64,000 nucleotides of DNA from Fusobacterium varium (GTDB taxonomy: Bacteria; Fusobacteriota; Fusobacteriia; Fusobacteriales; Fusobacteriaceae). The notes under the pieces are model-generated. The model searched no databases. It was given only the letters and a program-made list of their open reading frames with translations, and was not told the DNA's origin. The stretch's first letter is position 1, and every line of letters begins with the position of its first letter. A program made the translations under genes and the position numbers. Location of the stretch: the NCBI GenBank assembly GCA_002356455.1, contig AP017968.1, positions 62,001-126,000 of the forward strand, in the 5' to 3' direction. This document shows positions 21,008-36,754 of this stretch, piece by piece.

Positions 21008-24000
21008 ATGAAAAGGGGAGAGATTGAAAAATCTTTGAAAAGATTTTTAAAAAGAAGAGTCAGTTATTCGTTTTCGTTATTGATAGCTTTTATGATAACT
21101 GGAGGAATATCTTTTGGAGCAGGAATAACAGCAGAGGATATTCAGGAAACTAAAAGTGATCTTTTAACTAGAATACAGCTGGAAAAAGAGGAAATTCAGC
21201 GAAAACTATTAGAAAATCAGGGAAGATTGAAGGCATTGAATTTGGACTCAAGAGTTCTATTGAAAGAGGCAGATTTTTATTCCAAACCAACGGAGCCGGC
21301 ATATGGTTTTACAATGATAGGAGGATATAAGAAAGCAGACAGTGTAGATAAGGACTGGAAAGGAAGTGTAAGAAATGATACTCCAATGGATAAGATGAGA
21401 AAGAGATTTAATGAAGTACATGGAAATTCATCAGAAGCAGGGGAAAAGGGAACACTTCTTGGGGCAGCACAATATACACATAATAGTAAAACTGGTGGAT
21501 ATATGTCAAGTGGCTGGGTAAATATGAACAGCAGCTATCATCTAAATACTAATGTATATGATGCAGAGGCTAAATTATTTATACTTCCAGTGGTAAAAGC
21601 ACCAGTAGTAATAGAGCCGACAGTGCCGAATGTAACATTTACAGTTCCAGCAGCACCAACAGTGATACCAGTGACATCTCCAGCAATAGCTTCAATAAAT
21701 GTAGGAGCAGTAAATGTAACAGCGCCAACAGTAGTGACGCCGACAGTTACACTTCCGACAGCACCAACAGCACCAGGAGATATAACAGTAACAGTAAATG
21801 AACCAAATATAAATGTAAGTATAGGGGCAATAAATGTGGCTGGACCAGGAGCGTTGAATATCCCTAATTTAGTTACGCCTAATATAGTAATATCTCTAAA
21901 TCCAGTAGCACCACCTTCAATTATACCCCCATCACCAAGTGTATCTACACCAATAGCACCTTCAGCTCCAACTTTTACTTCATATGTGGCTCCAGGTGGA
22001 ACTTGGCTGAATATGAGCGGAGAAGGAGGTCCAGTAGGACATGGATTGAGGGGATATAATAATTTTAATTCAAATGTCTTGGCAGCTTCAACTACAGCTT
22101 TACAATCAAATGGAACAGCAGGAAATCTTGCAATAGGACAAGTTAGAAGATTAACAGATACAGCTATGCCACTTTTTGGTGGAATGAACTTAAGTGGTAA
22201 TGGAGCAGTAAGGGGAGAAATATATGCCTATAGAGATGCAAGTGGTGCAAAAACTGGTTATAAAAATATAACAAGTACAACATCTGTAGCTGCATATACT
22301 CCATATTATTATAGTACAACACATGGAGGATCATTTTTAGCAATAACTGGAAGTGCTCAAAGACCTGGATATACACCTGGAACAGTATTGAGTGCAGAAA
22401 TAATAGGGCAGAAAAATAGATGGATAATGCACAATCATTGGGCAGGAACATTGGTACAAAATATAGATTTTAAAATAGGAGGAATAGATGGAGCACCTGG
22501 AGCTGTAGGAATGCAGCCAGGAGATGCAGCAAAGTATGGAGAAGCTGGAGTTCTGCTGATAAGAAATGACAGCAGTATGAAAATAAAAGATTCAACAATA
22601 GAACTTATGGGAAAAGCTACAATAAGTACAGATATTCTCCATTGGGGAGCAAATTATCTGACATCTTTAGAGTTAGAAAATGTTACTATAAAGATAACTG
22701 GAAATCAAAATACTCTTTTTAATAATGTACCTTATTCAGATCAAGGGACATGGTCTACTGTTGATATAAATTCTAAATTTGTAGATTGGGGAAGACCTAG
22801 ACAAGATAATGGGATAGGAAAATTGGGAGTATTTGGAAAAACTACAATGGGAATAGATACAAGTACTAATACTATTTATTATATTTCAGCCAGCAGTTCA
22901 TACAGATGGAACGGATATAATGGAGCTAATACTACTTTATCAGATGGAACTACAGCAAAGCATAGTCATATAGCTAATCCAGAGGCTTTGTTGGTATATA
23001 CTCCACTTATGGGAAGAGTAAGATATGAAAATAAAGATTCTGGTGGAAATAAAGGAACTTTCTATTTTAATGGTTCTGGAAATGTAGGAACATGGGTACA
23101 GAAATATGTTCCAGACAGAACTAAATATACATATGGATTACCAGCAACTGAAGCTCCTATTATAGATTTAGGTGAAGTATATATGACAGGAGATGGAAAT
23201 GTTGGAATTTATTTGGCAGAACATCAAGGCAGAACTAGACCTGATTATTATGGAATATTCCAAGGAACATTACCTATAGATTTTAAAATAGGAACTTCAT
23301 TAAATGGAGCTAGTGGAACTTCTCAGATAACTGCTGGAAATAAAGATGGAGATGCAACAAAATCAAGTGGAAATGTGGCTCTTTATGTTGCCTCAGGTCA
23401 GAGAAAAGAATTAACAGTAGCTAATGGATATTTTCCAGCAACAACTAATTTAAAAGCCCATTCAAGCACAAATATATATGGAACAGGAATTGGAACTCCA
23501 GCAGGGACAGAAGTAGGGTATCCAGAGTTAAAAGACCCAGCTCATGCTATACAAAACCTTAAAATAGATAAATATAGTGCAGTATTTGGCCAATATTCTA
23601 AAAATAATATAGCAATTGTGGCAAGAAATGGAAGTGTTGTTGAATTATCTACAGCTTCAGTAATAACAGATGGACAGAATGGATCTACACCAGAGGCTCA
23701 AAGGGCAGAGGGAACAATAATAGCTTTTGCAGAAGGAGTATGGTTCAATCCAAGACCAGCAGTAATTGGTGCTAATAATGGGGCAATAATAACAAGTTCT
23801 GGACAGCCAGTAGTAACAGATGGAAGAGCTGGACAGAAATATGTACCACAATATGGTTCTTCAGTATTAATATCACAAAATATGGCTTTAGGAAGTAAAA
23901 AAGCTGTGGCAGTATTTGCTAAAGATGGAGCAAAAATAGAAACAAAAAGTATAACTATTTATGGAGCTGAATCTACAGGAGCTTTTGCTTCTGGACATAA

Positions 24001-27000
24001 AAGATGGGCTACAGAAAACTTAGAGAGTTCTATAGCTTATGGTGGAGGGACAGCAGCTCCTTCAGTTATAAATATAGCTGGAGATATAGTTCTTACAAAT
24101 GGTGATAAAAATAAAGGTGTTGTTGCTATGAGTGGAACGACAGGAGATGGTGCTCAAATAACTGTAACAGGAAAGCTAAATGTAACAGGACTTGGGGCTT
24201 ATGTAGATGGAGCAAAATCAAAAATAGTAATAAATGGACCAGGAAGTACTCTTACATCAGGAGCAGATGGAGCTTTAGTAGCTTTAAATGGAGGGCAGCT
24301 TGAATTCAAAGGTGGAAGTATAGCTCATGGTGTAGATAACCAGCTGGCATTTTACTCTTCATCAACAGGTGCTTCAAGAATTACTTTTACAGGTGCAACA
24401 ACTTTAAATATAAGCAAAGGGGTAGTTTTCTATGGAGAAGCATCTGATTTTACTTCTGGAGCAGGAACTTCGTTATATAATGGAATGGGAAATCTGACAG
24501 TAAACTTAACAGGAAATGGAGTAAATCTAGGAGTATTTAAAAATGTAAATGCTATATGGGATGGAACAGCAAATTATTTAAACAATCCAACAAATGGACT
24601 GGTAAATATACCTAAAGTAGCAGCTATCAATCCTAACAGTTATTGGTATAAGAGCAGCCTGGATGGGGGAACACTTCTTGTAAGTACAAATGTTAACAGA
24701 GATAATATATCATCTGGTGGAACAGTTGGAGATGGATTCAATGACATAGTAATGGAAAGAAAAGCTGTTACTTTAGATACAGGAAATACTGTAAGTTCTG
24801 CTGGAGGAAGAGGATTGTATCTTGGTTCAAACACTACAGCAGCAGCTAATACTGAATCTGGTTACACTATCAAAGGAACAGTGGATATAGCAGATGGAAC
24901 AAATGAAGCAGTGGGAATATATACAAGCTATGGACATATAAATGTAGAAAATAATGGAGTTGTAAAAGTATCAAAGGGAGTAGGAGTATATGGAATCAAT
25001 GGAAGTAAGGTAGAAAATAAAGCTGGTGGGAAAATAGAGCTTGCAAGCTCAGATTCTACAAATCAATCTATTGGTATTTTGGCTCTGGCTACTAATAAAT
25101 CTGGAACACCAGATGCCTATGGAAAGAATGCAGGGAAAGCTGGACTATGGGGAGAAGTTGTCAATAAAGGAACTATTGATATAACTGGTACTCATGGAAT
25201 AGGTATCTATATGGAAAATAATCACAACAGTGCAGCTAAGGCTCAAATGACTGTACATAATGAAGCTCCTATTACATTGGGAGATAATGGAAAAGGTATA
25301 GTAATAAGAAGTACTAATACAACTGGGGCTGGAGGAACTCTTACTCTAAAGGATTCTGGAAGTGGAAGAGATATCAAAGTAGGTAAAAGCGGTATAGGAA
25401 TATATGCTCAAGGTTCTGATGTAAAAATGGATGGAGATTATGGAATAGAAATCCAAGAGGGAGGAGTAGCGCTTCAATCAGAAGGAAATAGTATAATATC
25501 TCGTACTAATGCAGCAGATAAACTTACAGTGGACTATACAGGAGCTTCAGGAACAGGAAAAACAGCTATAGGAATAGCTTTTAAAGGAGCAGCAGGAAAT
25601 ACTTTTAATAACAATATGAATATGGATGTATTGAATACTGGAGGAGCAGAAACTATAGTAGGTATTTATGGATCAGGAGCAGGAACCCTTACTAACAGTG
25701 GAAATATAACAGCAGAATCTACAGGTTCTTATGGAATAATTTCAGAGGGAGTAAATGTAGTAAATACAGGGCTTGTAACAGTTGGAGACAGTGTACTGCC
25801 AGTAAGCGGAGCAATAGGAATTTATGTGAAGGATGCCTCTGTTGAAACAGTAGGGAAAGATATAGTTATTCAGGGAAATGGAGACAGTTCAACAAGTACT
25901 CATCCTATTGGAATCTATGCAAAGAGCACAGCAGCAGGAAACAGAGATATAAAGGTTACTAATGGAGTATCACCAATGAGTGTTGCAGGAAAAGCAGGAA
26001 TAGGAATATATTTGGAGGATACAGTTGGAACAGCCTTAAAACTGAACAGCTCATCAGATATTTTTTTAGGAGATTCTTCAACAGCAGCAGACAGAAGATT
26101 TGGAATATTTATGACTAATGCTAAGAACACAGGAAATGAAACAAGTGGAGTAATAACTGTGGGAGAAAATAATATAGGAATCTATAGTAAGGATTCTGTA
26201 CTTAAAAACAGCGGAACTATAAATGTAACACATAATGCTTCTGGAACAGAGAATATAGGAGTACATAATGTAACAGACAATGGAAACTTTACATTCAGCA
26301 ACTCTGGAACTGTCACTGTAAATGGAGTATCAAATATAGGAATTTCTGCTAAAACAACAGGAAGTTATTCAGGAATGATTGAATTAAGTGGTGGAAGTAT
26401 AGCTGTAACAGCCTCAAGTCTTGCCAATGGAGATATACCATTGGGAATCTATGCATCTGGAAATAATATTACAGTATCTTCAATAACAGCAAGTACTATA
26501 ACAGCATCGCCTAATGCAGTTGGAGTATACTTGGATGGAGATAATACTTCAACAACAAGCGGACTTATGAATATTTCTCTTTCATCTGATACAGGTGGCA
26601 AGATGGGAATAGGAGCTTACTATAAAGGAGGCGCTTTTGCAGACAGTGGAACAATGAGTTTGACTAGTACAGCTACAGCGCTGAGTGGAGCAGATCCAGT
26701 AAGACCGATTGGAATATATTATGGAACAGGTTCTGTACAAAATAAAACTCATATAGAAATCACAGGGGTAAGTGATGAGATTATAGGAATGTATGGTTCA
26801 ACTCTGGCTCCATTTGCTAACAGTGGAAATATAACTTTAAATGCAAAGGGAATAGGGGCATACTTCATAGATACAGATGTAGCAAACAGCGGAAATGTAA
26901 CAGTAAACGCTGCTGATGGATATGGAATGTACTTTAAAGGAGGAGATTCTGCATCAACAGGAACTGTAACAGCAACAGGAAGTAACTCTGTAGGAGTTAT

Positions 27001-30000
27001 TGTAACTAAGGCAGGTTCTTCATTTACAAACAATGCAGGAGGAATAATAAATTCTGGTGGAACATCATCAATTGGAGTATATGCAGAAAATGGAGCAACA
27101 TTTACAAATGCAGGAACTCTTAATTCTACTCTTTCAGGAGGAAGTATAGGAGCATTTGCTAAAGGTTCTGTAATAGAAAACACAGGAACTATAAGTTCTC
27201 ATTATCTTGGACTGTATGGTAAGGATGCTTCAACTATAAACTATACATCTGGAATAATGACTATTAATAGTGGTGTAGGAATACTTGCTGATGGAGGAAC
27301 TTCAACAGTAAATCTTAATGGTGGAAGCATAACAGGAACTGCAGCAGGGACTACTTCAGTAGTTGGAAAAAATACAGGAATAATTAATCTTAATGGAACA
27401 AATATATCTCAAACTGGTGCAGGAACAATAGGAATAGTACTTGATAATGGAAGTTCTGTACTGACAGGCGGAAATATTTCTGTTGGTGCAGGAGGAACAG
27501 GACTGTATGCAGAAAACAGTACAGTAACTTTATCAGGATATGGTGGAAGCATTACTATGGGAAATCAGGGAATAGCTCTGTATTCTAAGGATTCAACGCT
27601 GTCTTCAGGAACATTGAATGTAAATTATACTAATACTGCTAAAGGAGTAGGTATATATTATGAAGGAACAAATTCAGTAATGAATAATATAACAGTAAAT
27701 CATACAGGAGATAATCTTGTAAGCATATTTGCTGATGGAATTTCTCTTACAAATACAGCAGCTCAAACCATTAATGATGATGGAATAGGAGTTTATGGAG
27801 ATAATGGAGCAGTAGTTTCTAATCAGGGAACACTTACTTTAAATGGAGATGATACTATAGGTATCTATCTAGATGGAGCAGCTTCACAAATAACAAATAT
27901 AGGAACTATAGCAGGAACTCTGTCAACTGTTGGAAATAAGATAGGAGTTTATGTAAACAGTGGAGATATAACAGGAAATACAGCATATAACTTTGATATT
28001 GATGGAGGAATAGGAATTTATCTGAAAAACAATGACATAAGTTATACAGGAACTATGACTGTAGCAGGAGATTCAAATTCAGTAAACAGAACAATAGGAA
28101 TATATGTAGATCCTTCTATTACAGGAACTCTTGGAACAAATATAAATATAACTGGAGAAAATGCAATAGGAATATATCTTGCTGAAAACTCAGGAGTGGC
28201 AGCAAATATAACATATAATGGAGAACTTAACATCACATCTGCAAGTACAGCAGACAGAGGAATAGGAGCTTTACTGGAACAGGGAAGTACATTCACTTTA
28301 GGTGCTGGAGGAAAAGTAGATATAGGAGGAACAAATAACATAGGATTTTATGTAAAAAGCGGAGCTAATCTTAATGTAACAGGAGGAACAGTAACAAATA
28401 CAGCATCTGGTGTATTTGCTTATCTGGATAATGGAAATCTTCACTTTACATCAGGTTCTCCTCTTAATATAAACTTTGCCAATGTAATTGTATCAGGTGC
28501 AGCAGGAAATCTGCTGAATGACACAGCAATAACTGTTGGAACAAGCGGACTGCAGGGAGATAGCGGAGCAACAATAGTTAACTCTAACCTTGGAACTATC
28601 AATGGAAATGTAGTAAATGCAAAAGCTATGGTAGGAACAGGAGCAGGAACTACTCTTACAAATGCAGGAACAATAAATCTGACAGGAGATACATCAATAG
28701 GAATGTATACTGAAGATTTTGCAATTGGAACATCAACAGGACATGTATCAGTAGGAGATAAATCAGCAGCATATTATGTTGGAACTGATGGAGTTATGAA
28801 TATAAGTGGAACAGCTTCAGTAGGGGAAGACTCAACTTTACTGTTTGGCGCAGGAGGATCAATCAACTATACAGGAGCAGATATAGTTATGAGCAATAAA
28901 AGTATAGCTCTTACACTTTCTGATACAGCCTCTACAGTAGACTTCAATAACAGAGAAGTTACAACAGGAACAGAGGGAACAGGAATATTCCTTACAGGAA
29001 CAGGAGATATCGCTAATGTAACAAATCTTGCTAAACTGAAAGTACAGAATAAGTCAACAGGAATATATATGGATAATAATACAGCAATGAATACAGGAAT
29101 AAACGTAGATTTAACAGGAACAGAAGCAATAGGAGTGTTCACTACAAATAATGGAAATATAAATTATTCAGGAAGTATGCTGTCAACAACTATAAAGAAC
29201 AAAGGAATAATCAATACAGGAACAGGAACTACTTTAAATAGCGGAAATATTCAGCTTACAGGAGATTCCAGCATAGGGATGTATGGTGAGAATGGAACAA
29301 TGATAAATAACTCATCAGTAGAAGTAGGAAATGGAGCATATACAGGATTGGTACTTAATTCAGCAGTAGCTATGTATGGTAAAAATGTAACTTCTGTATC
29401 AAACAATGGAAATATAAAAATAGGAACAGATGCAGTAGGAATATTTGGAGAAAATACTGTTGTAACAAATAGTAGCTCTATTCAAAGTACAGGAGCAAAA
29501 AGTACAGGAATATATGGACTTCAGGGAAGTGCATCAAATGCTGGAAATATAGTATTAGGAGATAGTTCCAATGGTATATTTGTAAAGAATGGAACTATGA
29601 TAATAAATACAGGAAATATAACAGTGGGAGATAATAATTCAGCTGGAATTTATGGAGCGGGAACTACTTCTGTACAGCATAACAGTGGAGTAATAACAGC
29701 TGGAAAAGAATCTGTTGGAATAGCTACAGAAACTGGAAATATATTAGTGGGAGCTGGAGCTGTTATCAATGCAGGAACAGATTCATCATATATATATTCT
29801 GCTTCAGGAACAGGAATAAATAATGCTAATTTATCATTAAGCGATCATAGTATAGGATTATATACAAAATCAGGAACTATGATAAATAATGCAAGTATAA
29901 CAGCAGGAAAATCAACTGTAATCTCAGGACTGCCACCAAAAATTTCAGTAGGAATGGCAGCAGAATCAGGAACTGTAGAAAACTCTGCCTCTGGATATAT

Positions 30001-31882
30001 ACATGTACCTGATGACCATGGAGTAGGAATAGTAGTAAATGATGGTGGAACGGGAATAAACAGAGGAACTGTTCAGGTAGATGGAAAACTTGCTTATGGA
30101 ATGCAGGCAACTAAAAATTCAACACTGGAAAACTATGGAACAATAACAGTAAAGGGAGCAAATTCAAGAGGAATGGCAGCTACTGATTATTCAACAGTTA
30201 AAAACCATGCTGGAGGAATTATTACAGTAAATGGAGCAGACAGTGAAGGAATCTATGTAGATTATGGGGCAACTGCTGAAAATTATGGAATAATAAATGT
30301 AAATGGTTCTGGAAGAACAGGAATATACCTAGGTAATGGAGGGGTTCTTCTTAATGCAGGAACAATAAATCTATCAGGAGGAGCAGATGGAGTTATAACA
30401 GGAAGCGGAAGTCTGGCAAATGTTGGAGATATAACTATCAATGGCCCAACAGCTTCAATAGATGGAATAACTATTACAAATACAGGGACAATAACAGTAA
30501 ATGGAGCTCTTGATTTTGGAACTATAACTTTAGGAAGTACAGCAGGGCATATAGGAACAATAAATGCTGAGTCATTCAATAAAGGACAGTTTATAGTTCT
30601 GCCGAATGTAACTCAGGGAAGCAACCATGATATGTATACAGTACAGTATCTAAATGGTATAACAAATGTACCAAATCATGGATCAATCACAGCAATATCT
30701 CATTCAGTTTCATTTATAGCAGATCTGCAGAAAGATGATACAGATCCTAACCTTATAAGAATAGTTATGGTAAAAATACCATATAAGAAACTTCTTTCAG
30801 GAACAGAAGCAATAGAGTTTGGAAATGGACTTGATGCGATTTATGCAAAAGCGGCAGATAAGGAACTGGAAATGTTTGATGCGCTGGATATGATATCAGA
30901 TAAAGATGAACTTGGAGCAACATTTGACAATGAGCTTAGAGGAAATGTATATGCAAATATTCAGACAAGAATGCTGGATATTAATGATGTATTTACAACA
31001 TCATATGAAAACCTGAAAAATAACAGACTTTATGCAAGAGAAACTCTGAAAATAGGAGCTATCATGACTGGAGGAGAAACAAAGAGCAAGAGAGCAGGAG
31101 TGGAGGATTATGAATCTAAATCTCTGGGAACAATGATCTTAAAAGAATATGACCATTCAAAATATGGAAGAGTATCTAACTGGAGTCTAGGATTTACACA
31201 AACTAAATTTGATTTTGATCCAGGATCAAAAGAAACAGTTTACTCACTAAATGCAGGAGTAGGATTTGAAGACTATATTAAAGACAATAAAAATCTGAAA
31301 TACTATACAAAAGGAGAGATAAGTGTAAATCACCATGAAACAGACAGAAAGATACATCTGAGCAGCGGAACGTATGAAAATACAGGAAAATTCTGGTCAG
31401 GAACAGTGGAGTGGAAAAATAAAATCAGATATGATATTCCATTGGATAGTGAAAAGATAAGACTTGGAGTATTTGGAACATTCAATTTAGGCTATGGAAA
31501 ATTTGAAGATTTCAAAGAAAGCGGAGATGGAATAGAACTGGATGTACAATCAAGAGATATGTATATAGTAAGACCGGGAGTAGGAGCAGATATATCATTC
31601 AATAAATATGCACAGTCAGGAAAATACAGTCTGATAGGAAAAGCAACAGCAGAATATGAACTGGGAAAAGTATATGATGGGGCAAATAAGGCAAAGATAA
31701 AGAATACAGATGCAGGGTATTACAAGCTTGAAAAGCCAAAGGAAGTAAAGGACATCATAAAAATAGGAGCGGAGCTTAAATATGAGACAAGAGAGGGTCA
31801 CAGCATAGGATTTGAAGTAACAAGACAAGAAGGAAGTGTAGATGCAACAAGGTATGGAGTAAACTTAATGTACAGATTTTAA
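21008..31882 (+). CDS. Giant type Va autotransporter adhesin (fusobacterial)
   Basis: A 3,624-residue autotransporter. Residues 1-38 hold the long basic signal region of fusobacterial autotransporters (LKRFLKRRVSYSFSLLI, MITGGISFG). A short coiled coil (~40-80) and a Pro/Val/Thr-rich linker (~195-325) follow. The passenger (~326-3300) is a beta-helix of dozens of degenerate modules with NSGNIT, GIGIY and TNAGTI signatures. The C-terminal ~285 residues are a 12-strand beta-barrel (start near LYARETLKIGA) ending YRF, the aromatic outer-membrane signature. I found no Cys in the whole protein, usual for secreted passengers. SD GGGGGAAG is 5-6 nt before the ATG. RadD- and Fap2-type relatives mediate coaggregation and host binding; the receptor is unknown. 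Confidence 0.93.
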   Translation: MKRGEIEKSLKRFLKRRVSYSFSLLIAFMITGGISFGAGITAEDIQETKSDLLTRIQLEKEEIQRKLLENQGRLKALNLDSRVLLKEADFYSKPTEPAYGFTMIGGYKKADSVDKDWKGSVRNDTPMDKMRKRFNEVHGNSSEAGEKGTLLGAAQYTHNSKTGGYMSSGWVNMNSSYHLNTNVYDAEAKLFILPVVKAPVVIEPTVPNVTFTVPAAPTVIPVTSPAIASINVGAVNVTAPTVVTPTVTLPTAPTAPGDITVTVNEPNINVSIGAINVAGPGALNIPNLVTPNIVISLNPVAPPSIIPPSPSVSTPIAPSAPTFTSYVAPGGTWLNMSGEGGPVGHGLRGYNNFNSNVLAASTTALQSNGTAGNLAIGQVRRLTDTAMPLFGGMNLSGNGAVRGEIYAYRDASGAKTGYKNITSTTSVAAYTPYYYSTTHGGSFLAITGSAQRPGYTPGTVLSAEIIGQKNRWIMHNHWAGTLVQNIDFKIGGIDGAPGAVGMQPGDAAKYGEAGVLLIRNDSSMKIKDSTIELMGKATISTDILHWGANYLTSLELENVTIKITGNQNTLFNNVPYSDQGTWSTVDINSKFVDWGRPRQDNGIGKLGVFGKTTMGIDTSTNTIYYISASSSYRWNGYNGANTTLSDGTTAKHSHIANPEALLVYTPLMGRVRYENKDSGGNKGTFYFNGSGNVGTWVQKYVPDRTKYTYGLPATEAPIIDLGEVYMTGDGNVGIYLAEHQGRTRPDYYGIFQGTLPIDFKIGTSLNGASGTSQITAGNKDGDATKSSGNVALYVASGQRKELTVANGYFPATTNLKAHSSTNIYGTGIGTPAGTEVGYPELKDPAHAIQNLKIDKYSAVFGQYSKNNIAIVARNGSVVELSTASVITDGQNGSTPEAQRAEGTIIAFAEGVWFNPRPAVIGANNGAIITSSGQPVVTDGRAGQKYVPQYGSSVLISQNMALGSKKAVAVFAKDGAKIETKSITIYGAESTGAFASGHKRWATENLESSIAYGGGTAAPSVINIAGDIVLTNGDKNKGVVAMSGTTGDGAQITVTGKLNVTGLGAYVDGAKSKIVINGPGSTLTSGADGALVALNGGQLEFKGGSIAHGVDNQLAFYSSSTGASRITFTGATTLNISKGVVFYGEASDFTSGAGTSLYNGMGNLTVNLTGNGVNLGVFKNVNAIWDGTANYLNNPTNGLVNIPKVAAINPNSYWYKSSLDGGTLLVSTNVNRDNISSGGTVGDGFNDIVMERKAVTLDTGNTVSSAGGRGLYLGSNTTAAANTESGYTIKGTVDIADGTNEAVGIYTSYGHINVENNGVVKVSKGVGVYGINGSKVENKAGGKIELASSDSTNQSIGILALATNKSGTPDAYGKNAGKAGLWGEVVNKGTIDITGTHGIGIYMENNHNSAAKAQMTVHNEAPITLGDNGKGIVIRSTNTTGAGGTLTLKDSGSGRDIKVGKSGIGIYAQGSDVKMDGDYGIEIQEGGVALQSEGNSIISRTNAADKLTVDYTGASGTGKTAIGIAFKGAAGNTFNNNMNMDVLNTGGAETIVGIYGSGAGTLTNSGNITAESTGSYGIISEGVNVVNTGLVTVGDSVLPVSGAIGIYVKDASVETVGKDIVIQGNGDSSTSTHPIGIYAKSTAAGNRDIKVTNGVSPMSVAGKAGIGIYLEDTVGTALKLNSSSDIFLGDSSTAADRRFGIFMTNAKNTGNETSGVITVGENNIGIYSKDSVLKNSGTINVTHNASGTENIGVHNVTDNGNFTFSNSGTVTVNGVSNIGISAKTTGSYSGMIELSGGSIAVTASSLANGDIPLGIYASGNNITVSSITASTITASPNAVGVYLDGDNTSTTSGLMNISLSSDTGGKMGIGAYYKGGAFADSGTMSLTSTATALSGADPVRPIGIYYGTGSVQNKTHIEITGVSDEIIGMYGSTLAPFANSGNITLNAKGIGAYFIDTDVANSGNVTVNAADGYGMYFKGGDSASTGTVTATGSNSVGVIVTKAGSSFTNNAGGIINSGGTSSIGVYAENGATFTNAGTLNSTLSGGSIGAFAKGSVIENTGTISSHYLGLYGKDASTINYTSGIMTINSGVGILADGGTSTVNLNGGSITGTAAGTTSVVGKNTGIINLNGTNISQTGAGTIGIVLDNGSSVLTGGNISVGAGGTGLYAENSTVTLSGYGGSITMGNQGIALYSKDSTLSSGTLNVNYTNTAKGVGIYYEGTNSVMNNITVNHTGDNLVSIFADGISLTNTAAQTINDDGIGVYGDNGAVVSNQGTLTLNGDDTIGIYLDGAASQITNIGTIAGTLSTVGNKIGVYVNSGDITGNTAYNFDIDGGIGIYLKNNDISYTGTMTVAGDSNSVNRTIGIYVDPSITGTLGTNINITGENAIGIYLAENSGVAANITYNGELNITSASTADRGIGALLEQGSTFTLGAGGKVDIGGTNNIGFYVKSGANLNVTGGTVTNTASGVFAYLDNGNLHFTSGSPLNINFANVIVSGAAGNLLNDTAITVGTSGLQGDSGATIVNSNLGTINGNVVNAKAMVGTGAGTTLTNAGTINLTGDTSIGMYTEDFAIGTSTGHVSVGDKSAAYYVGTDGVMNISGTASVGEDSTLLFGAGGSINYTGADIVMSNKSIALTLSDTASTVDFNNREVTTGTEGTGIFLTGTGDIANVTNLAKLKVQNKSTGIYMDNNTAMNTGINVDLTGTEAIGVFTTNNGNINYSGSMLSTTIKNKGIINTGTGTTLNSGNIQLTGDSSIGMYGENGTMINNSSVEVGNGAYTGLVLNSAVAMYGKNVTSVSNNGNIKIGTDAVGIFGENTVVTNSSSIQSTGAKSTGIYGLQGSASNAGNIVLGDSSNGIFVKNGTMIINTGNITVGDNNSAGIYGAGTTSVQHNSGVITAGKESVGIATETGNILVGAGAVINAGTDSSYIYSASGTGINNANLSLSDHSIGLYTKSGTMINNASITAGKSTVISGLPPKISVGMAAESGTVENSASGYIHVPDDHGVGIVVNDGGTGINRGTVQVDGKLAYGMQATKNSTLENYGTITVKGANSRGMAATDYSTVKNHAGGIITVNGADSEGIYVDYGATAENYGIINVNGSGRTGIYLGNGGVLLNAGTINLSGGADGVITGSGSLANVGDITINGPTASIDGITITNTGTITVNGALDFGTITLGSTAGHIGTINAESFNKGQFIVLPNVTQGSNHDMYTVQYLNGITNVPNHGSITAISHSVSFIADLQKDDTDPNLIRIVMVKIPYKKLLSGTEAIEFGNGLDAIYAKAADKELEMFDALDMISDKDELGATFDNELRGNVYANIQTRMLDINDVFTTSYENLKNNRLYARETLKIGAIMTGGETKSKRAGVEDYESKSLGTMILKEYDHSKYGRVSNWSLGFTQTKFDFDPGSKETVYSLNAGVGFEDYIKDNKNLKYYTKGEISVNHHETDRKIHLSSGTYENTGKFWSGTVEWKNKIRYDIPLDSEKIRLGVFGTFNLGYGKFEDFKESGDGIELDVQSRDMYIVRPGVGADISFNKYAQSGKYSLIGKATAEYELGKVYDGANKAKIKNTDAGYYKLEKPKEVKDIIKIGAELKYETREGHSIGFEVTRQEGSVDATRYGVNLMYRF
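24750..30420 (+). repeat. Degenerate beta-helix repeat region inside the autotransporter gene
   Basis: The coding strand is strongly purine-rich with recurrent GGAATA, ACAGGAA and AATATAAC words. They encode repeated glycine-centred turns (GIGIY, SGNITV, NTGTI) every ~25-60 residues. Copies are diverged at both DNA and protein level, so no exact tandem repeat unit can be stated. Antisense frames across this region are shadows of the low-complexity codon pattern. Confidence 0.7.
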
Positions 31883-32445: not shown

Positions 32446-32703
32446 TTAAATTTTCCAGCATTTACATTGTTCTATACACTTTCCTTCATCTCCTTGCTCC
32501 TTATCATATGCAAATGATATAAGAAGTTCACATGGAAAAATACCACATTGTCCACAATGTTCAATATTTTTTTCTTCACAGCATGATTTTAATGGACAGC
32601 TGTCATCCCAAAAAGGTTTAGTAATATTAATACATCCTCTGCATCTTGCTTCTTCTTTGTAGTGACATTCTTCACAAAGTATTCCACATCTTGACTGAAT
32701 CAT
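32446..32703 (-). CDS. Cysteine-rich DUF3795 protein
   Basis: An 85-residue protein with 14 cysteines in the DUF3795 pattern: SRCGILCEEC, RCRGC, FWDDSCPLKSCC, EHCGQCGIFPCELL and the conserved FAYDKEQGDEG. The Cys clusters probably bind zinc or an iron-sulfur group. No function is established for the family. It is the last gene of the unit regulator-MBL-DUF3795, with 17 bp between it and the MBL gene. Confidence 0.88.
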   Translation of the reverse strand: MIQSRCGILCEECHYKEEARCRGCINITKPFWDDSCPLKSCCEEKNIEHCGQCGIFPCELLISFAYDKEQGDEGKCIEQCKCWKI

Positions 32704-32720: not shown

Positions 32721-33548
32721 CTAATCTATAGTGATAGTATTCCCAGTGTTGTTGTATATAAAATTTTTTTTGCTTTCTTTAAGTATTTTAGTAACTTTTT
32801 CTCCAGTACAGTGTGAAACTCCAAAGAATTCAATATTACACTCATCAAAATAGTTAAGAACTTTTTCTATTCTCTCATCACTGGCTTTTGATAAATGAAG
32901 TCCTCCTATAATTCCATATATTTTCTTTTGAGTACGGCATTTTATATTTTCAACTATATTAGCTATTCCTATGTGAGAACATCCGCAAACTATCAACAAA
33001 CCTTTACTTGTATCAATTCCTAATACTAGCTCATCTTCCATATTATCAAGGATATAATTATCATATATTTTTCTGAAATAATATCTTGTAGGAACTTCAA
33101 AATTATTCAGAGATTTAAAATTTGTAAATAAGGTTATATTTTTAGAAAGTTTAAATTCATTGTTTTCTATATAATTTATTTTTATGCCTTTATCTAATAT
33201 ATATTTTTCATTGAAATTATTTCCAAGAAACTCATGTATAACACCAGTTATTCTATGCTTTTCTTCAAAGAATGTTTTAGCAATATGGAGTGTAAAGCTA
33301 TTATTGAAATGGTCTGAAAGCTTTTTTATACCTCCAGTATGATCAAAATGGCTATGACTTAATACTACATGTTTTATTTCATTTAATGGAATATGAAGTT
33401 TTTGGGCATTAAAAATAAAATCTCCACTTTTACCAGTGTCAAAAATTAAAGATATATCCTTATCCTCAATGAATAGAGATAAGCCAAATTCATTTTTTAA
33501 TTCTTTGTTGCAGCCAGCTTCGTTTTCTATTAGAGTAGTTATTTTCAA
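32721..33548 (-). CDS. MBL-fold metallo-hydrolase, dihydropterin-ribofuranosyl-aminobenzene-phosphate synthase-like group
   Basis: A 275-residue zinc hydrolase fold with LSHSHFDHTGG, VCGCSHIGIANIVE and IYGIIGGLHL, the set seen in the group often labelled as pterin/ribofuranosyl-aminobenzene phosphate synthases. The real reaction in bacteria is unknown. An ATG at 33596 is in frame, but it lies inside a near-perfect 30-nt palindrome and gives a leader peptide foreign to the family. The TTG at 33548 (followed by KITTLIEN) has GGTG 5 nt upstream and matches the usual N-terminus. It follows the XRE-cupin regulator. Confidence 0.78.
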   Translation of the reverse strand: MKITTLIENEAGCNKELKNEFGLSLFIEDKDISLIFDTGKSGDFIFNAQKLHIPLNEIKHVVLSHSHFDHTGGIKKLSDHFNNSFTLHIAKTFFEEKHRITGVIHEFLGNNFNEKYILDKGIKINYIENNEFKLSKNITLFTNFKSLNNFEVPTRYYFRKIYDNYILDNMEDELVLGIDTSKGLLIVCGCSHIGIANIVENIKCRTQKKIYGIIGGLHLSKASDERIEKVLNYFDECNIEFFGVSHCTGEKVTKILKESKKNFIYNNTGNTITID

Positions 33549-33575
33549 ATTAACACCATACCTTTTATAGTTAAA

Positions 33576-33605
33576 TTCATTATAGTGGAATTCCATTATA
33601 ATGAA
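33576..33605. promoter_or_regulatory. 30-nt near-perfect palindrome (operator A) between regulator and MBL gene
   Basis: The centre TGGAATTCCA (33586-33595) is flanked by arms TTCATTATA and TATAATGAA; only one base pair departs from perfect dyad symmetry. It begins right after the regulator's stop (33609) and precedes the TTG start of the MBL gene. A related core occurs upstream of the regulator (site B) and, weaker, in the divergent promoter (site C). It is a candidate binding site of the XRE-cupin regulator. Confidence 0.6.
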
Positions 33606-33608
33606 AGA

Positions 33609-34142
33609 TTATTTTTTTACAGAAAACCAGTAAACTACAGATGGACTGTTTTTAGGATTTTTATACCTATGTGGAGAACCATGTTTTATTACAATAGAAT
33701 CTCCTTCATAAAGATGAAAAAGTTCTTTGTCTATCTCTATTTCAAGTTCACCTTTGATTACAATTCCAATTTCATCATATAAATGTCCCCATGACATATC
33801 ACTGAAATTATCTCCTTTTTCAATAGTGATGGCAATACCATTAAGATTTGATTTTCCATTAAGAAGACTTTCTATTTTTACATGAACTTCAGAATTTTCT
33901 AGAATTTCTTCTCTTTCTTCCTTTCTTGTAACTGGCGAATGAGTATCAGCAGGATCTAAAATTTCCATTAGATTTACAGCAAGAGCCTGACATATCTGCT
34001 GTAGATTACTTATAGATGGACTATTTAGATCTCTTTCTATATTGCTTAAGAAACCTATTGAAAGTTTAGTCATATCTGATAGATCTTTTAATGTATAATT
34101 TTTTCTTTTTCTAATTGCTTTTATTTTTTCCCCTAGTGTCAT
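33609..34142 (-). CDS. XRE-family regulator with C-terminal cupin domain
   Basis: The 177-residue protein has a helix-turn-helix at residues 1-60 (LSIGFLSNIERDLNSPSI) and a cupin barrel at ~105-175 (YEGDSIVIKHGSPHRYKNP). This family senses small ligands such as amino acids, polyamines or sugars through the cupin. SD GGAGG is 9 nt before the ATG, and a TATAAT lies at 34180-34175. It heads an operon with the MBL and DUF3795 genes and is divergent from an EIIC permease/L-serine ammonia-lyase pair. Related palindromes suggest autoregulation and control of the pair. Confidence 0.87.
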   Translation of the reverse strand: MTLGEKIKAIRKRKNYTLKDLSDMTKLSIGFLSNIERDLNSPSISNLQQICQALAVNLMEILDPADTHSPVTRKEEREEILENSEVHVKIESLLNGKSNLNGIAITIEKGDNFSDMSWGHLYDEIGIVIKGELEIEIDKELFHLYEGDSIVIKHGSPHRYKNPKNSPSVVYWFSVKK

Positions 34143-34208
34143 TAACTGCAGCCTCCACCCTGATAATTTTATATATTATACCATAATAACAGAAAAAGTT
34201 GAAATAAT

Positions 34209-34232
34209 ATCACTATACTGGAATTTCACTTT
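34209..34232. promoter_or_regulatory. Operator-like site B upstream of the XRE-cupin gene
   Basis: The core TGGAATTTCA (34219-34228) and its left flank TCACTATAC match site A (TCATTATAG-TGGAATTCCA) at most positions. It is centred ~55 bp upstream of the start predicted from TATAAT at 34180-34175 and overlaps a weaker alternative -10 (TATAGT). Confidence 0.45.
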
Positions 34233-34360
34233 TTTATAAAATTTAATAAAAAAATACTAAAAAAATAGGCTTTAATTGAAAAAAGAAAGAAAAAATTACA
34301 AAATAAAACGTATACAATCATAAAAACCAGCTCTTTATTTCAAAATAATGAAAAAATTTA

Positions 34361-34389
34361 TTGAAATAATTCCACTGATATGTTATACT
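34361..34389 (+). promoter_or_regulatory. Promoter of the EIIC/serine ammonia-lyase operon with site C
   Basis: TTGAAA (34361-34366) and TATACT (34384-34389) are separated by exactly 17 bp. The spacer contains AATTCCAC, a half-match to operator core TGGAATTCCA. The predicted leader to the ATG at 34507 is ~110 nt. Confidence 0.55.
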
Positions 34390-34506
34390 TTTTTCATGTA
34401 TGTAAAAAAACAATAATATTCGTAAAGAGAACGAAAACTATTGTTAATTTATAATGAACAAATTGTGAAATTAAAATGTACAAAAAGAAAGAAGGAGATC
34501 TTTAAA

Positions 34507-35523
34507 ATGGAAATGATTAAAGGAATAGCATTATTACTTGTAGTTTTAGCAGGGTTTTCTCTATTTAGCTTAAAAATGCCAAAGGGTATGAAAGCAATGG
34601 GAGCATTGGCAGGAGCAGCAACAGCAAGCTTTCTTGTAGAAGCATTTCAACTTTATGTAGGTGGAGATTTATTAGGATTTGAATTCTTAAAAGGTGTAGG
34701 TCAGGCAGCAGGATCTATGGGTGGAGTAGCAGCTGGAGCATTAGTTCCAATAGCTCTTGGTGTGAATCCTACTTATGCTATACTGATAGGAGTATCTGTA
34801 GCTGGATATGGAATTTTACCTGGTTTTTTAGCAGGTTATATACTTTCATTTGTAGTACCTAAACTGGAAGAAAAAATACCTCAAGGAGTAGACCTTATAG
34901 TAATAATATGTTTCATCGCTCCATTGGCAAGACTTATAGCAACTGTTTCTAATCCAGTTGTTAACTCAACTCTTTTAAATATAGGTGGAATATTGGAAAG
35001 TGCTTCTCATTCTAACCCAATTCTTATGGGAATTATTCTTGGGGGAATAATTACAGTAGTAGCAACAGCTCCATTATCATCAATGGCACTTACAGCTATG
35101 CTTGGATTAACAGGAATACCAATGGCTATTGGGGCTCTTTCTGTAATGGGATCATCATTTATGAATGGAGTATTCTTTCATAGAATGGGATTTGGAGACA
35201 GAAAAACTACTATAGCAGTGGCAGTAGAACCTTTGACTCAAGCAGATATAATTTCTGCAAACCCTGTTCCTGTATATGTTACCAACTTCATTGGAGGAGC
35301 AGCAGCAGGAGTTATTGTATCATTATTTGGATTGGTAAATAATGCAACTGGAACAGCGACACCAATAGCAGGACTTATGGTAATGTATGGCTTTAATGAT
35401 GCAGTAGTAGTTACAAAAGTTGCACTTATGTGTGCAGCAGCAGGAGCAGCGGCAGGATACATAGGGTCATTGATATTTAAGAATTATAAAATCAAAACAG
35501 TTGATGAGATAAGAGGAAATTAA
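34507..35523 (+). CDS. Orphan PTS_EIIC_2-type membrane permease
   Basis: A 338-residue polytopic protein of the PTS_EIIC_2 family. Its Gly/Ala-rich helices include the blocks GVNPTYAILIGVSVAGYGILPGF, TAPLSSMALTAMLGLTGIPMAIGALS, the EPLTQADIISANP segment and YVTNFIGG. No EIIA, EIIB or HPr domain is encoded nearby, so phosphotransfer coupling is not evident; it may be a plain permease or use EIIA/EIIB from elsewhere. A TTG at 34441 is rejected because AAGGAG lies 9 nt before the ATG at 34507. The L-serine ammonia-lyase follows 19 bp on, suggesting the cargo feeds that enzyme. Confidence 0.8.
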   Translation: MEMIKGIALLLVVLAGFSLFSLKMPKGMKAMGALAGAATASFLVEAFQLYVGGDLLGFEFLKGVGQAAGSMGGVAAGALVPIALGVNPTYAILIGVSVAGYGILPGFLAGYILSFVVPKLEEKIPQGVDLIVIICFIAPLARLIATVSNPVVNSTLLNIGGILESASHSNPILMGIILGGIITVVATAPLSSMALTAMLGLTGIPMAIGALSVMGSSFMNGVFFHRMGFGDRKTTIAVAVEPLTQADIISANPVPVYVTNFIGGAAAGVIVSLFGLVNNATGTATPIAGLMVMYGFNDAVVVTKVALMCAAAGAAAGYIGSLIFKNYKIKTVDEIRGN

Positions 35524-35542: not shown

Positions 35543-36754
35543 TTGGACAGTTTAAAGGAATTATTTAAAATAGGCTGTGGTCCATCAAGTTCTCATACAA
35601 TGGGACCAGAGAGAGCAGCTAAAAGATTTAAAGCAGAAACAGAAAATGCACATTCATATAAAGTAGAACTTTATGGCAGTCTTGCAGCTACAGGAAAAGG
35701 ACATCTTACAGACTGGATAATAGAAGAAACTCTTAAACCTAAAAAAACAGAGATAATCTGGATGCCTGAATTTATTCATGAATATCATACTAATGGAATG
35801 AAGTTTGAAGCTCTTGATGAAAATGGAAATTTAATTAAAGACTGGCTTGTTTTTTCGGTAGGCGGAGGAGCAATAAAAGAGCTTTCTGATAAAAGAAATG
35901 GTGCAGGGCAGTGTTACAATCTTTCTAAAATGAATGATATTATAAAATGGTGTAAAGAAAATAATAAAGAGCTTTGGGAATATGTAGAACATTGTGAAGG
36001 AAAAGATATATGGAATCATTTAAAAGATATTCTTGATACTATGAATGCTGCTGTAAGCAGAGGCATTAAGAAAGATGGTATTCTTCCAGGAAAATTGAGA
36101 TATCCAAGAAAAGCTAAAGAAATATATGATAAAATAGATAAAAAGAAAAACTATCTTGTAATAACTAAAAAAATATTTGCCTATGCCTTAGCTGTGTCTG
36201 AAGAAAACAGCAGTGCAGGAACTATTGTTACAGCTCCAACATGTGGAGCAGCAGGAGTTATTCCAGGATTACTAAGAGCATTGATAGAGGAATATGAGCT
36301 GGATGAAACTACATCACTTAGAGCATTAGCAGTAGCAGGTTTGATAGGAAATCTTATTAAAGAAAATGCAACTATATCAGGGGCAGAAGCAGGATGTCAG
36401 GCAGAAATAGGATCAGCTTGCTCTATGGCAGCAGGAATGGCGGTATATATTCTTGGAGGAACTATTGACCAAATAGAGTATGCTGCAGAAATGGGAATGG
36501 AACATCATCTGGGAATGACTTGTGACCCCGTTGGTGGATATGTGCAGATACCATGTATAGAGAGAAATGCAATAGTAGCAGTAAGAGCTTTAAATACAGC
36601 AGATTATGCACTTTCAACAAATGGAGAACATACTATAAGTTTTGATCAGGTAGTTATAACTATGAAAGAAACAGGAAGTGATATGTGTTCTTCATATAAA
36701 GAAACTTCTACTGGTGGTTTGGCAAAGTATTATGATAAATTTTTAAAAGATTAA
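35543..36754 (+). CDS. sdaA: L-serine ammonia-lyase, iron-sulfur type, single chain
   Basis: A 403-residue enzyme in beta-alpha order. The N-terminal block is GCGPSSSHTMGPERAA, and the C-terminal catalytic domain has APTCGAAGVIPG, GCQAEIGSACSMAAG and CDPVGGYVQIPCIERN. The Cys residues fit ligands of the [4Fe-4S] cluster. It converts L-serine to pyruvate and ammonia, an energy route in amino-acid fermenters. It starts with TTG, with CGGAGGG 8 nt upstream. It is coupled to the EIIC gene and followed by a terminator. Action on a related hydroxy amino acid cannot be ruled out. Confidence 0.9.
   Translation: MDSLKELFKIGCGPSSSHTMGPERAAKRFKAETENAHSYKVELYGSLAATGKGHLTDWIIEETLKPKKTEIIWMPEFIHEYHTNGMKFEALDENGNLIKDWLVFSVGGGAIKELSDKRNGAGQCYNLSKMNDIIKWCKENNKELWEYVEHCEGKDIWNHLKDILDTMNAAVSRGIKKDGILPGKLRYPRKAKEIYDKIDKKKNYLVITKKIFAYALAVSEENSSAGTIVTAPTCGAAGVIPGLLRALIEEYELDETTSLRALAVAGLIGNLIKENATISGAEAGCQAEIGSACSMAAGMAVYILGGTIDQIEYAAEMGMEHHLGMTCDPVGGYVQIPCIERNAIVAVRALNTADYALSTNGEHTISFDQVVITMKETGSDMCSSYKETSTGGLAKYYDKFLKD

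Follow-up and report, generated by a model that had tools for sequence, protein, structure and literature searches.

What controls the divergent serine locus of Fusobacterium varium, and which DNA element is read by the regulator encoded within it? In the window, by which we mean the whole 64-kb stretch of DNA analysed here, genes for a DUF3795 protein, an MBL-fold metallohydrolase (MBL) and an XRE-cupin regulator lie on the minus strand, and genes for a PTS_EIIC_2 family membrane protein (EIIC) and an L-serine ammonia-lyase diverge from them (genome size 4.12 Mb; Table 1). An earlier, sequence-only reading of the region had proposed that TGGAATT palindromes outline a compact regulon of these five genes. 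Our results give good support to a local regulon under the XRE-cupin regulator, with sites that track the regulator across genera and phyla, but the recognition element had been wrong in detail. From sequence comparison, the functional unit appears to be the 16-bp inverted repeat TTTCA-N6-TGAAA and not a 30-nt palindrome, the latter being two such units side by side.

Table 1. Genes and predicted regulatory elements of the serine locus (window coordinates; operator scores are matches to the ten consensus bases of the unit).
Feature	Position	Strand	Remarks
DUF3795 gene	32446..32703	-	Pfam PF12675
MBL-fold metallohydrolase gene	32721..33548	-	275 aa, probable TTG start; Lactamase_B; PDB relative TM1679, E 4.1e-30
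Predicted operator unit ATTCATTATAGTGGAA	33575..33590		8/10; first palindrome half
Predicted operator unit TTCCATTATAATGAAA	33591..33606		9/10; second palindrome half
XRE-cupin regulator gene (REG)	33609..34142	-	177 aa; N-terminal HTH, C-terminal cupin
Likely extended -10 of regulator promoter (TGGTATAAT)	34175..34183	-	Read from sequence
Predicted operator unit TATCACTATACTGGAA	34208..34223		8/10; upstream of regulator promoter
Weaker predicted unit TTTCACTTTTTTATAA	34224..34239		8/10; abuts the preceding unit
Predicted operator O1 TTTCAAAATAATGAAA	34338..34353		10/10; centre at about -50
-35 box TTGAAA, EIIC-serine ammonia-lyase promoter	34361..34366	+	7 bp after O1
-10 box TATACT, same promoter	34384..34389	+	TG before; 17-bp spacer from -35
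Predicted operator O2 TTTCATGTATGTAAAA	34392..34407		9/10; over predicted start site, 54 bp from O1
Hairpin, 5' leader of EIIC mRNA	34409..34445	+	z-score -3.54; 7-nt loop AAAGAGA
PTS_EIIC_2 family membrane protein gene	34507..35523	+	Pfam PF13303, E 2e-60
L-serine ammonia-lyase gene	35543..36754	+	TIGR00720, 402.9 bits (cut-off 345.1)

Two members of the locus are lineage-restricted: MBL is present in 6/15 loci and DUF3795, which is probably co-transcribed with it, in 3/15. The PTS_EIIC_2 protein is a candidate serine importer, and a candidate amino-acid rather than sugar transporter; a sequence search found no solved relative of it, and none of the five genes scanned at the locus encodes an EIIA or EIIB. 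Just upstream of the serine locus, positions 21008–31882 hold a 3624-aa open frame with repeats that resembles a giant autotransporter adhesin.

The unit was defined by counting inverted repeats, with no motif set in advance, in 16 representative intervals between regulator and EIIC. TTCA-N6-TGAA ranked first, with 16/16, and TTTCA-N6-TGAAA was first among repeats with 5-base halves (12/16); over 200 shuffles the best values reached by any motif were 13 and 7, respectively. Near-duplicate loci were left out of this count (L035, L036, L043, L056, L058), as were those in which the divergent EIIC is missing or not covered (L049–L052, L055, L060–L066). A motif search in related genomes, the check that the sequence-only reading had called for, found the unit at all 15 syntenic EIIC promoters. 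Pairs of units 52–54 bp apart were counted 13 times over 30 regions, whereas 100 shuffles gave a mean of 0.38 and a maximum of 3, the loci being related by descent and the shuffle statistics ignoring kinship; spacings of 16 bp and 22 bp were found in 5 and 4 regions.

A genome-wide regulon was rejected, the exact unit occurring at 28 places versus 32 for the reversed control. As the exact unit by itself shows no enrichment, specificity must require pairing or context. Both composite arrangements, the EIIC promoter and the zero-mismatch tandem described below, occur at a single locus in their own genome, as is typical of a local repressor with few targets beside its own gene, and the predicted regulon is therefore local: regulator, MBL (with DUF3795), EIIC and serine ammonia-lyase. 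A model of the EIIC promoter (76 positions, 14 loci) scored 43–63 bits in 15/61 family genomes, each of which has the divergent pair, and the next best score was 26.8 bits (19.4 in its own genome); 14 of the 15 high-scoring loci had been used in the model, so that it is the lack of hits in other places that carries the information.

The arrangement is clearest at the EIIC promoter, where positions were aligned on TTGAAA-17-TATACT in the two closest genera (15 loci) and start sites are predicted ones. O1, which had gone unnoticed in the sequence-only reading, is by its match to the consensus the strongest predicted site of the locus. Centred at -50.5/-49.5, it scores at least 8 in 15/15 loci and at least 9 in 14 (8 in L040). 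O2 scores at least 8 between +0.5 and +3.5 in 13/15 loci and is absent from the remaining two (L039, L048). A half-match had been reported within the 17-bp spacer and AATTCCA is indeed present at 34368–34374; however, TGGAATT/AATTCCA stands there in only one of the 15 orthologous promoters, that of the window itself, and the half-site was dropped as not conserved. It is more likely that the EIIC operon is controlled through the unit pair flanking its promoter.

We consider it quite probable, on the evidence of the sequence comparisons, that the regulator is an XRE-cupin repressor of serine catabolism that brackets this promoter with two units, controls its own gene and MBL, and is released by an effector. 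The comparisons themselves establish the unit, where it lies, that it is conserved, its tie to this regulator and the local extent of the regulon; the mechanism that we infer comprises binding, repression, cooperativity and effector release. A regulator dimer would bind the 16-bp inverted repeat, and units occupied shortly before the -35 box and over the start site would exclude RNA polymerase from the EIIC-serine ammonia-lyase promoter; the positions of the sites agree with repression. Abutting pairs with a 16-bp offset, upstream of the regulator and between the regulator and MBL, would provide autoregulation and control of MBL-DUF3795. The cupin pocket is probably occupied by a small molecule from serine catabolism, which may be serine or one of its products (2-aminoacrylate or pyruvate, for example), and this would lead to derepression.

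The same geometry could be read in the opposite sense, with the regulator as an activator: in the presence of serine it would sit on O1 at -50 and bring RNA polymerase to the EIIC promoter. Of all the elements O1 is conserved best; it ends a short distance before the -35 box (7 bp in the window), clear of the promoter core, and a centre at -50 is also a customary position for activators. Nevertheless we regard activation as unlikely, given that the promoter already comes close to consensus at its -35 box and has a 17-bp spacer with TG ahead of the -10 box, that the start site is covered by a second unit in all but two loci, and that the unit pair on the MBL side (33575–33606), upstream of MBL, contains TATAAT sequences that read on the minus strand. 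Moreover, the P. aeruginosa XRE-cupin regulators characterised in the consulted part of PMC7901475 repress.

Does the unit follow the regulator? Relatives of the regulator (E ≤ 1e-20) are encoded in 42/61 family genomes. The unit is absent from readable EIIC promoters where EIIC is not beside the regulator (L098, L104–L109), and Cetobacterium EIIC genes unlinked to a regulator are without sites. In this comparison L098, L106 and L109 were judged by eye, L097 was read through L178, L110 and L111 were not counted, and L092 is the same locus as L045. In Propionigenium maris (G052) the regulator and EIIC genes are found on separate contigs, yet a perfect unit lies 6 bp ahead of the EIIC -35 box and a second unit 53 bp upstream. 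The Cetobacterium regulator faces a LysE gene with an array of the TTCA...TGAA type, and in a Psychrilyobacter-like genus the units are 22 bp apart and reach the -35 box. In genera g8 and g13 (L049–L052) no unit was found next to the regulator gene, which adjoins a tRNA cluster.

The association extends beyond the Fusobacteriota. The fusobacterial regulator shares the recognition helix S-x-GF[LI]SN[IL]ER with relatives from Treponema and Saccharofermentans (33–37% identity), and units were found in 4/4 of these relatives that were scanned. Three of the four loci have promoters between units 52 bp apart, the full spacings in Treponema being 41/52/39 bp (L129), 49/52/52 bp (L130) and 40/52/39/52 bp (L132). 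The 52-bp pair brackets the RidA promoters of all three, as well as the regulator promoter of L132, and the -35 box follows the first unit by 6–7 bp, which is the Fusobacterium geometry. Across 13 genomes, zero-mismatch 52-bp pairs occur at four places, all of them at these three Treponema loci; one mismatch adds five places (one at L129, four elsewhere) versus 3 for the reversed control. The Tepidibacter relatives (55%) had no canonical unit, their best sites being TTTCA...TCGAAA or none, and this argues against a uniform operator.

Could the sites belong to another transcription factor, with the regulator as a bystander? The g8 and g13 regulators, with no unit beside their own genes, are what such an explanation would expect; however, the motif stays with the regulator family in two phyla even as the partner gene changes (EIIC, RidA), and among readable unlinked EIIC promoters it is found solely in Propionigenium, whose regulator is elsewhere. 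We therefore judge this explanation to be very improbable.

The palindrome between the regulator and MBL, with which the sequence-only reading began, is real: TTCATTATAGTGGAATTCCATTATAATGAA at 33576–33605 has two 15-nt arms and 14/15 pairs. It is the sole spacerless palindrome with 15-nt arms and at least 14 pairs in the window, and 30 dinucleotide shuffles of the window contained none. Its centre, TGGAATTCCA, is the meeting point of the units (A)TTCATTATAGTGGAA and TTCCATTATAATGAA(A), so that TGGAATT is the junction of two abutting units and was rejected as a recognition core. The abutting tandem, with its 16-bp offset, is found in 5/15 loci (the window, L035, L036, L039 and L048). In all five, both units hold 8–10 of the 10 consensus bases, and the pairing of the long palindrome falls from 14 to 10–13 of 16. 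At zero mismatches the tandem pattern occurs in 4/12 same-genus genomes, exclusively between regulator and MBL; at one mismatch it has three extra places (in G020, G021 and G026). It is absent at the MBL loci L041 and L046. The first-listed MBL start, 33596, falls inside the palindrome, but orthologue starts in L041 and L046 indicate TTG 33548 as the real start, and the palindrome is consequently intergenic. Upstream of the regulator a close variant had also been claimed; TGGAATTTCA can be read directly at 34219–34228, although it is weaker than the palindrome.

That the palindrome is no protein site at all, and instead acts in the regulator transcript as a hairpin or intrinsic terminator, is barely credible: a terminator scan does score it (13 pairs, T-rich tail), but on the plus strand only, whereas regulator and MBL are on the minus strand, where the sequence past the stem is TTTAACTATAAAAGG and no T-run follows, and the long pairing is what decays in relatives while both 16-bp units persist.

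An RNA element may nonetheless exist downstream of O2. In single folds, 8/10 orthologous EIIC leaders reach z-scores of -2.5 or lower, and a hand-anchored comparison of 6 leaders revealed double compensatory changes in L045 and L046. No Rfam family matched the hairpin, and RNAalifold returned no consensus structure for leader alignment A3, which counts against a simple shared fold, although poor alignment is suspected. A cis-acting RNA or an mRNA stabiliser is possible.

The genes that face the regulator in distant relatives bear on the effector of the proposed repressor. The gene that diverges from the regulator encodes serine ammonia-lyase in L123 (Vallitaleaceae) and L127 (Mediterraneibacter), and RidA in L130 and, by sequence resemblance, in L128, L129 and L132; as judged from these assignments, the neighbours share a serine/2-aminoacrylate theme. 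RidA clears the 2-aminoacrylate produced by serine/threonine dehydratases, and together with the RidA neighbours this makes a serine-derived effector a reasonable inference. More tentatively, and with the chances somewhat against it, these relatives may form an XRE-cupin repressor sub-family common to Fusobacteriota, Spirochaetota and Bacillota. Its members would sense a metabolite of serine dehydration, their dimers, bound to units separated by about five turns of the helix, would bridge or bend promoter DNA, and the lock would have been kept while the target was switched (serine ammonia-lyase/EIIC, RidA, LysE exporter).

The presented data supply a concrete predicted operator, a target list and a regulator for fusobacterial serine catabolism. 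They make the role of the EIIC_2 protein, so far a Pfam name only, and the ligand of the regulator directly testable, and the operator pair, being conserved across phyla, can serve as a starting point for target prediction in other XRE-cupin regulators that share this recognition helix. A search of open PMC text, with subscription papers outside its reach, found no paper on this TTTCA-N6-TGAAA operator or on this regulon.

With HTH_3 (residues 7–60) and Cupin_2 (residues 106–172) both above the gathering score, the regulator has the XRE-cupin architecture. Its cupin retains H120, E124 and H158, and W118 occupies what we take to be the position of the first metal-binding histidine. E. coli PuuR, of the same architecture and with an A/T-rich site that contains TGAAC, is its best NCBIfam match (NF007408), but the 63.3 bits are far under the equivalog cut-off of 211. 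The targets also differ, as they are not putrescine genes here. The P. aeruginosa XRE-cupin factors are, in the portion of PMC7901475 consulted, local repressors with palindromic core-promoter sites beside their own genes. Our regulator resembles PsdR, PauR and ErfA of Pseudomonas, as described there, in combining HTH and cupin and in having adjacent metabolic targets with core-promoter palindromes; by comparison alone, TTTCA-N6-TGAAA in the adjacent promoter region is a palindromic site of this kind. The consensus motifs of the three are said to differ mutually (same partial source), and our unit can be set beside them by description only. Unlike theirs, the targets here are serine ammonia-lyase and EIIC_2, and paired units about 52 bp apart that bracket a promoter do not feature in the descriptions of PsdR, PauR and ErfA in those parts of PMC7901475. 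In conclusion, this is a probable local repressor of a common type whose layout is unusually well conserved, and the promoter bracket is its most interesting feature.
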